From an uncultured Pelagibacteraceae bacterium (GTDB lineage: Bacteria > Pseudomonadota > Alphaproteobacteria > Pelagibacterales > Pelagibacteraceae): a stretch of 40,125 nucleotides of DNA. Below are positions 16,419-19,041 of this stretch, piece by piece. The stretch lies in NCBI GenBank assembly GCA_902533585.1, contig CACAMG010000005.1:1-40125 (forward strand), given 5' to 3'. Under the pieces are notes generated by a model. It had not been told where the DNA came from. It ran no database searches and saw only the letters and a list, made by a program, of their open reading frames with translations. How positions within the stretch are numbered: the stretch's first letter is position 1; every line of letters begins with the position of its first letter. Made by a program: the position numbers and the translations under genes.

Positions 16419-16709
16419 TTATAGATTAACTTTACTCAATTCATACATTTGAACAACTTCGACACATTCATCGAAAATAGGTTTTGCTATTGGATTATTG
16501 CCTGAAGCGAATTTCTTCATTTCTTCTTCATTATGAACTGAGACTTTAAACATAACATAACTTTTATCTGGTCCTATTGCTGGAACTGTTTTTTCAACAT
16601 GAGCAATAGTTTTTCTTACTGCCATTCCTTCATCTGATTGCATAAATCCCATGAACTTTTCAAATTTACCAGATTTAAGTCTTGCTATTGCAAGCATTTC
16701 TTTTTCCAT
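16419..16709 (-). CDS. Small conserved-looking protein, possible dimeric alpha/beta-barrel (ABM-like) fold
   Basis: 96 aa, MLAIARLKSGKFEKFMGFMQSDEGMAVRKTIAHVEKTVP...; co-directional with DUF1330 gene, 12-bp gap. Confidence 0.5.
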   Translation of the reverse strand: MEKEMLAIARLKSGKFEKFMGFMQSDEGMAVRKTIAHVEKTVPAIGPDKSYVMFKVSVHNEEEMKKFASGNNPIAKPIFDECVEVVQMYELSKVNL

Positions 16710-16775
16710 ATTTTCCCCCTCTATTTAATTTATATTTTTAATGTAACGCTTTTATTAGAAATCTGCTATGCAAAA

Positions 16776-16895
16776 TTAATTGTTACAGCAACAATTAATG
16801 TCTGATGGAATACAATCACAATCCTTAGTTCCATCACAAGTACATTTCTCATTTATACAATTTGCGCAATTACATTTTGGGTTATTACAAGCCAT
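16776..16895 (-). CDS. 39-aa cysteine-rich metallothionein-like micro-protein (not in supplied ORF track)
   Basis: Translation MACNNPKCNCANCINEKCTCDGTKDCDCIPSDINCCCNN*: 11 Cys in 39 residues, multiple CxC/CxxC. Lies 52 bp downstream of and co-directional with the MBL-fold gene. Confidence 0.72.
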   Translation of the reverse strand: MACNNPKCNCANCINEKCTCDGTKDCDCIPSDINCCCNN

Positions 16896-16947
16896 AGTAG
16901 AAATATATTGGTATAATATTTATTTACAACAGAAATATTGTCGCTTA

Positions 16948-17640
16948 TTAAATTTGGTCTAAAGTTAAACCTTTTACATTCGCAGGTACAGCAACATCCA
17001 TCATTTTAGGATTTGCTAGATTTAGATTGTTCATAATTTCTGCATATTGTTCCTTTGAACTTACTTGAAGACGTGGATTATTATTTTTTTCATTTTCAAT
17101 AGTTGAATTTTTTTTTCCATTATAATCATGAGCTGGATATACCAAAGTTTTTTCTGGTAATTTAAGTAGTTTGTTAAATAATGAGTCATAAGCATCATAA
17201 GAGTTTCCATTTTGAAAGTCTGTTCTCCCAGTTCCATTTATTAAAAGAGTATCTCCAGTAAAAACTCTATCATTCATAAGATAACTATAAGAACAATCAG
17301 TGTGACCCGGTGTATACACTGCTTTAAGTTCAATATTTTCTACATTTATTTTTTCGTTATCTTTTATTTTTAAATCAATTACTTCTGACTTTGATTTTTC
17401 ACCCATAATCCTGGTGCAACTTGTTCTTTTATGTAATTCGTTTAAACCTGTTATGTGATCAGCATGAATATGCGTATCAATTACTTTAACTAATTTTAAA
17501 TCTAAATTTTTTAAAACTTCTATGTATTCTTCTGCATGTTCAATTACAGGATCTATAATTAAAGCCTCACGACCTTTTCCACTTGATATAATGTAAGTAT
17601 AAGTTGAAGATTTAGTGTCAAATAACTGTTCAAATATCAT
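16948..17640 (-). CDS. Metallo-beta-lactamase fold persulfide (sulfur) dioxygenase, ETHE1/Blh-like
   Basis: DTHIHADHITGLNEL, YTPGHTDCSYSYL, VFTGDTLLINGTGRTDFQNG, LVYPAHDYNG. Confidence 0.82.
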   Translation of the reverse strand: MIFEQLFDTKSSTYTYIISSGKGREALIIDPVIEHAEEYIEVLKNLDLKLVKVIDTHIHADHITGLNELHKRTSCTRIMGEKSKSEVIDLKIKDNEKINVENIELKAVYTPGHTDCSYSYLMNDRVFTGDTLLINGTGRTDFQNGNSYDAYDSLFNKLLKLPEKTLVYPAHDYNGKKNSTIENEKNNNPRLQVSSKEQYAEIMNNLNLANPKMMDVAVPANVKGLTLDQI

Positions 17641-17723: not shown

Positions 17724-18386
17724 ATGACTTTAAAAATAAATAGTGTCGCTCCAGACTTTAAAGCAACTACTCAAGAAGGAGAAATTTCTTTTCACGAGTG
17801 GCTTGGCGACAGCTGGGGAGTATTGTTTTCACATCCAAAAGACTTCACTCCAGTTTGTACAACTGAATTAGGTACTTTAGCAAAAATGAAACCAGACTTT
17901 GACTCAAGAAATGTAAAAGTAATTGGATTAAGCGTAGATCCAGTTTCTGATCACGTTAAATGGTTAGATGACATTAAAGATGTTTGTGGAATGAAACCAT
18001 CTTATCCAATCATAGCAGATGAAAAATTAGAAGTTGCAAAACTTTATAACATGCTTGAAGGCGATGCTGGAACAACATCAATGGGACGTACAGCGGTAGA
18101 CAATGAAACTGTAAGAACTGTTTATGTTATTAGACCAGACAAAAGAATTGGTTTATTTCTAACTTATCCAATGACAACTGGAAGAAACTTTCAAGAGATA
18201 TTAAGAGCAATAGACTCTATGCAAAGAACAGCAAAACATAAGATTGCTACACCAGCTGATTGGAAACCTGGAGAAAAAGTAATTATTGTTCCTAAGGTTA
18301 CAAATGAGGAAGCAAAAAAAATATATCCAGATGGTTGGGAGACAATAAAACCATATTTAAGAAAAGTTCCAGATCCACAAAAGTAA
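17724..18386 (+). CDS. Peroxiredoxin, 1-Cys Prx6-type
   Basis: GVLFSHPKDFTPVCTTELGTLAKM; long C-terminal extension with TPADWKPGEKVIIVP. Confidence 0.92.
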   Translation: MTLKINSVAPDFKATTQEGEISFHEWLGDSWGVLFSHPKDFTPVCTTELGTLAKMKPDFDSRNVKVIGLSVDPVSDHVKWLDDIKDVCGMKPSYPIIADEKLEVAKLYNMLEGDAGTTSMGRTAVDNETVRTVYVIRPDKRIGLFLTYPMTTGRNFQEILRAIDSMQRTAKHKIATPADWKPGEKVIIVPKVTNEEAKKIYPDGWETIKPYLRKVPDPQK

Positions 18387-18387
18387 T

Positions 18388-19041
18388 TTGGATACAAAAG
18401 TATTAAACCAACAATCTCAGCATTGGGAAAAGAATTTCTCAAGTAAGCCTGAGATGTTTGGTTTAGAACCAAGTTTACCAGCAAAAAAAGCTTTAGAATT
18501 ATTTAAAGAAAATGAAATCAATAAAATTATTGAACTAGGTGCTGGATTAGGAAGAGATACAATTTTTTTTGCAAAAAATTCAATTCATGTTGATGCTTTG
18601 GATTATAGCCAGTCAGGGATCAAAGTTATAAATGAAAAAACAAAAATTCAAAATTTATCAGATTATATTTCAACTAAAACTTTTGATGTAAGAAAGACGT
18701 TGCCATTTAAAGACAACTCCATTGATGCTTGCTTTTCTCACATGCTATACTGCATGGCATTAACAAGTTTAGAGCTAGAAAATTTAAATAATGAAATTTG
18801 TAGAGTATTAAAACCAAAAGGTATAAATATTTATACAGTCAGAAATACAGATGATGGTGATTATAAAAATGGAACTTATATAGGGGAAAATTTATATGAA
18901 AACGACGGATTTATTGTGCATTTTTTTTCAAAAGAAAAAGTAAAAAAACTTTTAAAAGGATTTAATAATATTTTAATAGATAGTTTTGAAGAAGGAAATT
19001 TTCCAAGAAAACTATTTTTTGTATATAATCAGAAGATTTAA
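18388..19041 (+). CDS. Class I SAM-dependent methyltransferase (TTG start)
   Basis: IIELGAGLGRDTIFFAKNSIHVDALDYSQSGI; begins 1 bp after the peroxiredoxin stop. Confidence 0.82.
   Translation: MDTKVLNQQSQHWEKNFSSKPEMFGLEPSLPAKKALELFKENEINKIIELGAGLGRDTIFFAKNSIHVDALDYSQSGIKVINEKTKIQNLSDYISTKTFDVRKTLPFKDNSIDACFSHMLYCMALTSLELENLNNEICRVLKPKGINIYTVRNTDDGDYKNGTYIGENLYENDGFIVHFFSKEKVKKLLKGFNNILIDSFEEGNFPRKLFFVYNQKI

Follow-up and report, generated by a model that had tools for sequence, protein, structure and literature searches.

A metallothionein-like microprotein gene associated with cysteine biosynthesis genes in SAR11 bacteria

Eukaryotic-type and copper metallothioneins are aromatic-free thiolate clusters in which Cys provides all of the ligands, and the alpha domain of mammalian metallothionein employs 11 Cys for 4 divalent ions. 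Among the bacterial proteins, SmtA has a GATA-type zinc-finger fold (PMC10612145). Another type of short Cys-rich coding sequence occurs in mycobacteria, where polycysteine leaderless sORFs are described as cysteine-responsive attenuators, according to two later papers that refer to the original work (Canestrari et al., 2020, via PMC9031893 and PMC9094748). In SAR11 bacteria, transcriptional regulators are few and RNA serves to control sulfur metabolism (PMC5069961; PMC13198564), and sulfur genes of Pelagibacter are under SAM-II and SAM-V riboswitches (PMC5069961). The genes cysE and cysK are unmentioned in a 2009 survey of structured RNAs in Pelagibacter (PMC2704228) and were not upregulated in P. 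ubique HTCC1062 under sulfur limitation (PMC5069961).

This article describes a microgene found on a 40,125-nucleotide contig stretch (the window) of an uncultured Pelagibacteraceae bacterium, and its relatives in other SAR11 genomes. The reading favored here, to which a probability of about 0.55 is given, is that it encodes a metallothionein-like protein and constitutes the leaderless first cistron of a cysEK transcript, with a terminator- or stabilizer-like hairpin located before cysEK.

The microgene, its homologs and its relation to metallothioneins

The microgene occupies positions 16776..16895 of the minus strand, where an ATG...TAA frame encodes MACNNPKCNCANCINEKCTCDGTKDCDCIPSDINCCCNN, a protein of 39 aa of which 11 (28%) are Cys, arranged as C-x4-C-x-C-x2-C-x4-C-x-C-x5-C-x-C-x6-CCC. 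The frame had been proposed from the letters alone (hereafter, the sequence-only reading) as one whose Cys content is very unlikely to arise by chance, and re-translation and the statistics agree with that proposal. Taking as background the six-frame Cys-codon frequency of 2.7%, a binomial estimate gives a probability of 3.5e-9 that 38 codons would include 11 or more Cys, which becomes about 4e-7 on multiplication by the ORF count. Among the window's 112 ATG ORFs with a length of 30 aa or more, the microprotein ranks first in Cys content, the second reaching 19%. Searches of Pfam and NCBIfam gave no match for the microprotein. Pfam hits to Serglycin and DUF3648 were discarded as noise, and PDB matches to LDL-receptor class A repeats (phmmer, 0.0039) as coincidences of Cys spacing, their E-values being at least 2 with a profile. 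An AlphaFold2 model was of low confidence (pLDDT 66, pTM 0.30) and was left unused.

A single-sequence search of 150 related genomes retrieved 18 clear homologs, all from the same genus, and a scan of named bacterial genomes extended these to 80 homologous loci, all of them in Pelagibacterales (SAR11) and nearly all titled Pelagibacteraceae. A profile built from 56 distinct members matched 52 of the 397 Pelagibacterales genomes searched; of these, 51 belong to the genus of the window and one to another genus of the family. These counts are lower bounds, and the true prevalence exceeds 13%, because the search missed a divergent member at locus L131. In a sample of 385 genomes of the class only the window's own genome was matched, no credible match came from 150 genomes of the phylum, and no phage record or viral contig carrying the microgene was detected at the sensitivity used. 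Two weak matches outside Pelagibacterales (L169, L170) were rejected since they are not small Cys-rich proteins. In the representative of the other genus (L121) the microgene directly precedes a cysE that lies on a long branch. The L131 member, found between ETHE1 and cysE at about 1340-1480, is longer (MTCNNKSCNCKNCDPKKCKCSSDGNCACNSCKCSPNSTNCCCNN) and contains an extra Cys block, a gain of the sort that metal-binding repeats show and that favors the metallothionein-like reading. No description of a SAR11 protein of this kind could be found in a search of open-licence papers, and the family is apparently undescribed in that searchable literature. It may have been overlooked so far because the single-contig genomes among those listed by the search lack the gene.

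Selection on the coding sequence was estimated over 35 nearest-neighbor pairs. The dN/dS ratio was 0.24 over codons 2-30, 0.007 for Cys codons (27 synonymous versus 2 non-synonymous changes) and 0.37 for the non-Cys codons of the 2-30 segment, away from the hairpin discussed below; as this whole segment is constrained, selection acts on the peptide and not merely on the Cys codons near the CCC tract. Residues M1, C3, N5, C8, C10, C18, C20, C26, C28, C36 and C37 are invariant among the 56 members, and N12, C13, P30 and C35 nearly so. The sole repeated loss of an internal Cys is a change of C13 to Tyr, in L036 and L100. The spacing of Cys is nearly fixed, with length variation (36-43 aa) confined to the 21-25 linker and the C-terminus; Cys makes up 26-33% of the distinct sequences, 39 of which (of 56) lack W, F, Y and H altogether. 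Microgene Cys codons are TGC in 41% of cases versus 23% in neighboring genes, a bias that selection on efficient decoding would favor. Together, the dN/dS values, the invariant residues and the TGC bias form the pattern expected of a peptide that is translated and functional. Conservation of the Cys codons in related genomes, on which the sequence-only reading had staked its case beforehand, is thus strong, and its idea of a metallothionein-like microprotein is upheld by the constraint on Cys and non-Cys codons alike. The microgene is a real, conserved SAR11 gene. A chance ORF within AT-rich DNA, an explanation to which the short length and the empty Pfam and NCBIfam searches lend themselves, has next to no probability in view of the 80 named-genome loci that keep the frame, the Cys dN/dS and the chance estimate.

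The protein displays the broad traits of metallothioneins: it is small and rich in Cys, has CxC, CxxC and CC motifs and few aromatic residues, and its Cys are under strong selection. With SmtA, BmtA and PflQ2MT it shares the small size, the Cys-rich composition, the CxC and CxxC motifs and, presumably, thiolate binding of soft metals, but it does not possess their conserved His, their CC..CA..H core or, as far as the sequence allows to predict, a GATA-type zinc-finger fold. Neither the window protein nor any of the 56 members matched PF02069 (Metallothio_Pro) at E-values up to 1; hhalign against six PF02069 members gave a probability of 0.7% over 3 aligned columns, and the Y/F-CC-x2-C-A-x2-H core with its conserved His, present in those six, is absent from the microprotein. 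The earlier impression that this is not a standard SmtA/BmtA protein was therefore correct. PF02069 itself was not detected in 101 related genomes. The likeness to eukaryotic and copper metallothioneins is one of composition: Cys as the only ligand, hardly any His or aromatic residue, a total of 11 Cys, and CxC and CCC motifs. No sequence relationship was found, and a stoichiometry of about 4 divalent ions, or more of Cu(I), for the 11 thiolates is a prediction, so that the resemblance would represent convergence in kind and not membership.

Gene neighborhood, promoter-like element and separability from cysEK

The gene directly upstream of the microgene, in the window (16948..17640, minus strand) as well as in 80 of 80 relatives, encodes an ETHE1-like persulfide dioxygenase of the MBL fold, with full-length similarity to PDB entries 4ysb (4e-69) and 4chl, human ETHE1 (2.4e-52). 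It is divergent from a conserved 1-Cys peroxiredoxin gene (17724..18386, plus strand; PF10417 and AhpC-TSA). In relatives the order is divergent peroxiredoxin, in some cases SQR-like genes, ETHE1, microgene, cysE and, nearly always where the contig allows, cysK, with gaps of 46-79 bp between ETHE1 and the microgene and of 25-38 bp between the microgene and cysE. Both downstream products passed NCBIfam equivalog cut-offs, CysE as serine O-acetyltransferase (TIGR01172, 217.6 versus 210.65) and CysK as cysteine synthase A (NF007989, 517.4 versus 387). The cysE gene follows the microgene in the 80 relatives and is absent from that position in the window. Two loci that seemed to lack it (L054, L055) were artefacts of ORF calling, cysE being intact in both, and in L062 cysE (after about 2940) is seemingly frameshifted next to an intact microgene, possibly through a sequencing error. 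Among the neighbors of the microgene, in the window or in relatives, none that is conserved was recognized as encoding a metal transporter, a metal sensor or a chaperone. Beside the peroxiredoxin lies a methyltransferase gene (18388-19041) corresponding to the N-terminal part of the selenoprotein MduS (NF045649, 245 bits; cut-off 380), which is a conserved neighbor in many relatives.

A promoter-like element, TTGTAA-16-TATATT, was located by scanning at 16902..16929 of the minus strand, its -10 hexamer ending 6 nt before the ATG. Taken alone, such matches are no commoner in the window than in shuffles; among relatives a TATAxx hexamer precedes the ATG in 79 of 80, mostly ending 4-6 nt away and usually with TTG 16-20 nt upstream, a placement seen in about 9% of other genes. 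This arrangement predicts a leaderless microgene mRNA starting at or beside the ATG. A very similar element, ACTATATA, precedes cysE at many loci without the microgene, so that the latter seems to occupy the space between cysE and its promoter. Across the loci L171-L230, conservation of ACTATATA ahead of cysE extends to several gene contexts. When the element is more distant from cysE, the leader often contains a TATCAAG...GACAAA-like sequence, which may be a further cis element.

The sequence-only reading had placed the microgene 52 bp downstream of the MBL gene, in the same direction, had recognized that gene as ETHE1-like and divergent from a 1-Cys peroxiredoxin, and had suggested a thiol, persulfide and metal homeostasis module. 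The positions and assignments proved accurate, and the two neighbors are conserved; the module as drawn missed the partner genes cysE-cysK and did not take into account the microgene's own predicted promoter. Also absent from it was the conserved RNA hairpin on the CCC and stop codons, described below, from which a regulatory rival arises. As this element intervenes between ETHE1 and the microgene, the latter belongs more to a cysteine-biosynthesis transcript than to the ETHE1 module, and ETHE1 was dropped as main partner in favor of cysEK.

In the window the microgene is followed directly by a gene (16419..16709, minus strand) for a 96-aa conserved protein with no Pfam or NCBIfam match, which in many relatives comes after cysK. 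The sequence between them (16710..16775, minus strand) resembles a scar of cysE-cysK loss: it reads TAATTTTGCATAGC...TAATAAAAGCGTTACATT after the micro-ORF stop, and the region after cysK in L028 reads TAATTTTACATAGC...TAATAAAAGCGTTACATT. Matching flanks and the same next gene suggest that cysEK was removed between two stop codons, and the window appears to have lost these genes exactly there while the microgene kept its Cys and its hairpin. CysK and a true CysE were not found in the part of the window's genome that was searched (67%). The absence could instead be an amplification artefact, as this is a single 67%-complete genome and the junction falls at a short shared sequence. A terminator-like GTAAC...GTTAC-type inverted repeat follows cysK in L028 and L030 and is partly retained in the window at about 16740-16760.

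CysE was detected in 301 of 397 Pelagibacterales genomes and the microgene in 52, hence most cysE genes occur without it; CysE was present in 51 of 51 other microgene-bearing genomes versus 250 of 345 without the microgene (Fisher p 6e-6). Examination of 80 cysE loci, nearly all picked for the absence of a profile match, revealed the microgene in only two, L131 (the divergent member) and L144, and in 30 a direct succession of ETHE1 and cysE, about 23-51 bp apart and devoid of any Cys-rich ORF. L218 and L222 do have Cys-rich ORFs ahead of cysE, which are unrelated to the microgene. On a CysE tree of 139 rows the microgene label changes 5 times, and the loss in L139 is nested in a carrying clade. 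The microgene is therefore separable from cysEK both ways, being kept without cysEK in the window and absent from most cysEK operons.

The hairpin at the 3' end

The last codons of the window's microgene (CCC), its stop codon and one base beyond can fold as a hairpin, ATTAATTGTT-GCTGT-AACAATTAAT (16775..16799, minus strand), with a few T residues in a row after it on the same strand. In most lineages the CCC and Asn codons fold likewise, together with the stop codon and several bases beyond it, from differing sequences, the arms being ATTAATTGTT/AACAATTAAT in the window, ACTTGTT/AACAAGT in L121 and AGCTGTT/AACAGCT in L021; in L044, of the clade ending in CCC and the stop codon, the hairpin is shifted in register (ACTTCT/AGAAGT) and precedes a T run. 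Against controls with synonymous recoding and shuffled downstream bases, z-scores averaged -3.1 for the CCCN type and were below -5.5 in the L044 group; values in the CCCCN clade were mostly between +1 and -1.4 and not significant, and that of the window alone was weak (-1.4). Among 22 sequences the covariation score was 0.364 versus 0.192 +/- 0.016 in shuffles, and both sides had changed in 37 cells versus 15, slid controls being far lower; this signal is strong but not conclusive, as related sequences inflate such scores. Gene ends reaching -8 kcal/mol amounted to 37% for the microgene versus 0-4% for other genes of the same loci. Two levels of selection are thus visible, one on the peptide and one on the RNA.

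No Rfam match was obtained in the window or in three relatives. The locus recalls the SAM-II and SAM-V systems in that sulfur amino-acid genes of the same bacteria might be controlled at the RNA level, but what is found here is a coding sequence with a 3' hairpin and not an aptamer. The mycobacterial polycysteine sORFs, as portrayed in the two papers mentioned above, offer another parallel: an ORF that is short and rich in Cys, has some of its Cys codons contiguous, is predicted to be leaderless and stands as first cistron before other genes, which in SAR11 are those of cysteine biosynthesis. Two traits of an attenuator sORF are found, namely contiguous Cys codons before cysE in relatives and RNA structure on the poly-Cys codons in most lineages; non-sensing codons should be unconstrained in a pure leader, whereas here the non-Cys codons are not, and N5, N12 and P30 are conserved. 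The SAR11 element also differs in belonging to another phylum, in its many Cys spread at nearly fixed spacing, in protein-level selection, in a hairpin that covers the CCC and stop codons and in persisting without cysEK in the window.

Protein function, leader function or both

According to the metallothionein-like reading, the microprotein would be a Cys-only thiolate scaffold, nearly free of His and aromatics, for the binding of soft metal ions, namely Cu(I), Zn or Cd, or for thiol buffering. As first, probably leaderless, cistron of a transcript that continues into cysE-cysK in relatives, it would be expressed together with the cysteine needed to build it, and the 3' hairpin, as terminator or stabilizer, might yield the small protein in excess over CysE-CysK. 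For a subset of SAR11, a Cys-rich family fixed beside the genes of cysteine synthesis would mean a high expense of sulfur and would thereby point to metal or sulfur stress in the niche. Against this reading stand the weak AlphaFold2 model, the lack of conserved metal-related neighbors and the fact that an association with cysE and a poly-Cys hairpin are equally expected of a cysteine-sensing leader. A carrier of persulfide or sulfane sulfur that cooperates with ETHE1, CysK and, at loci that have it, SQR, and does not bind metal, would account for the invariable ETHE1 upstream and for the SQR-like genes that precede it in some relatives; it seems decidedly improbable given the predicted promoter that separates the microgene from ETHE1, the metallothionein-type Cys spacing and the many ETHE1-cysEK operons devoid of the microgene. 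We know of no persulfide carrier of the microprotein type.

The main rival is a cysteine-responsive leader, alone or together with a protein function, because poly-Cys leaderless sORFs are reported as attenuators in mycobacteria (PMC9031893; PMC9094748) and SAR11 bacteria, poor in transcriptional regulators, control sulfur genes through RNA (PMC5069961; PMC13198564). In its pure form it would be an attenuator uORF for cysEK with a functionless peptide: a ribosome would read the 11 Cys codons on a leaderless mRNA, and its progress through the CCC tract would govern formation of the hairpin and expression of cysEK. The microgene lies at a short distance before cysE behind a promoter-like element of cysE's own kind, its poly-Cys codons fall within a covarying hairpin, and the L044 clade keeps a hairpin in another register. 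A pure leader is nevertheless unlikely, for protein-level selection extends to codons, those of Cys and others, that lie well ahead of the hairpin, and the Cys spacing is nearly fixed; with Cys codons from codon 3 on, starved ribosomes would mostly stall before the hairpin; consensus folding revealed no conserved competing (antiterminator) structure, and in the CCCCN clade the hairpin does not stand out significantly; and the microgene was retained after the window's apparent loss of cysEK and is missing from most cysEK operons. If the hairpin and the Cys codons did regulate cysEK, a minimal genome would be using coding RNA for amino-acid control. Possible, although still on the doubtful side, is a combination of both functions, a metallothionein-like protein whose mRNA, by means of its poly-Cys codons and hairpin, also tunes cysEK to the cysteine supply. 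Selection at the protein and RNA levels and the fixed gene order agree with such a dual role, by which streamlined ocean bacteria would couple cysteine synthesis to a Cys-rich sink without a transcription factor; against it, the hairpin might do no more than terminate transcription or stabilize the mRNA, and it lacks significance in one large clade.

One further pairing was observed within the coding sequence. As N5 is invariant, it leaves little covariation to test; in L025 the codons 3-5 (TGC-AAT-AAC) are complementary to the CCC-Asn region, and both segments are paired in one predicted fold.
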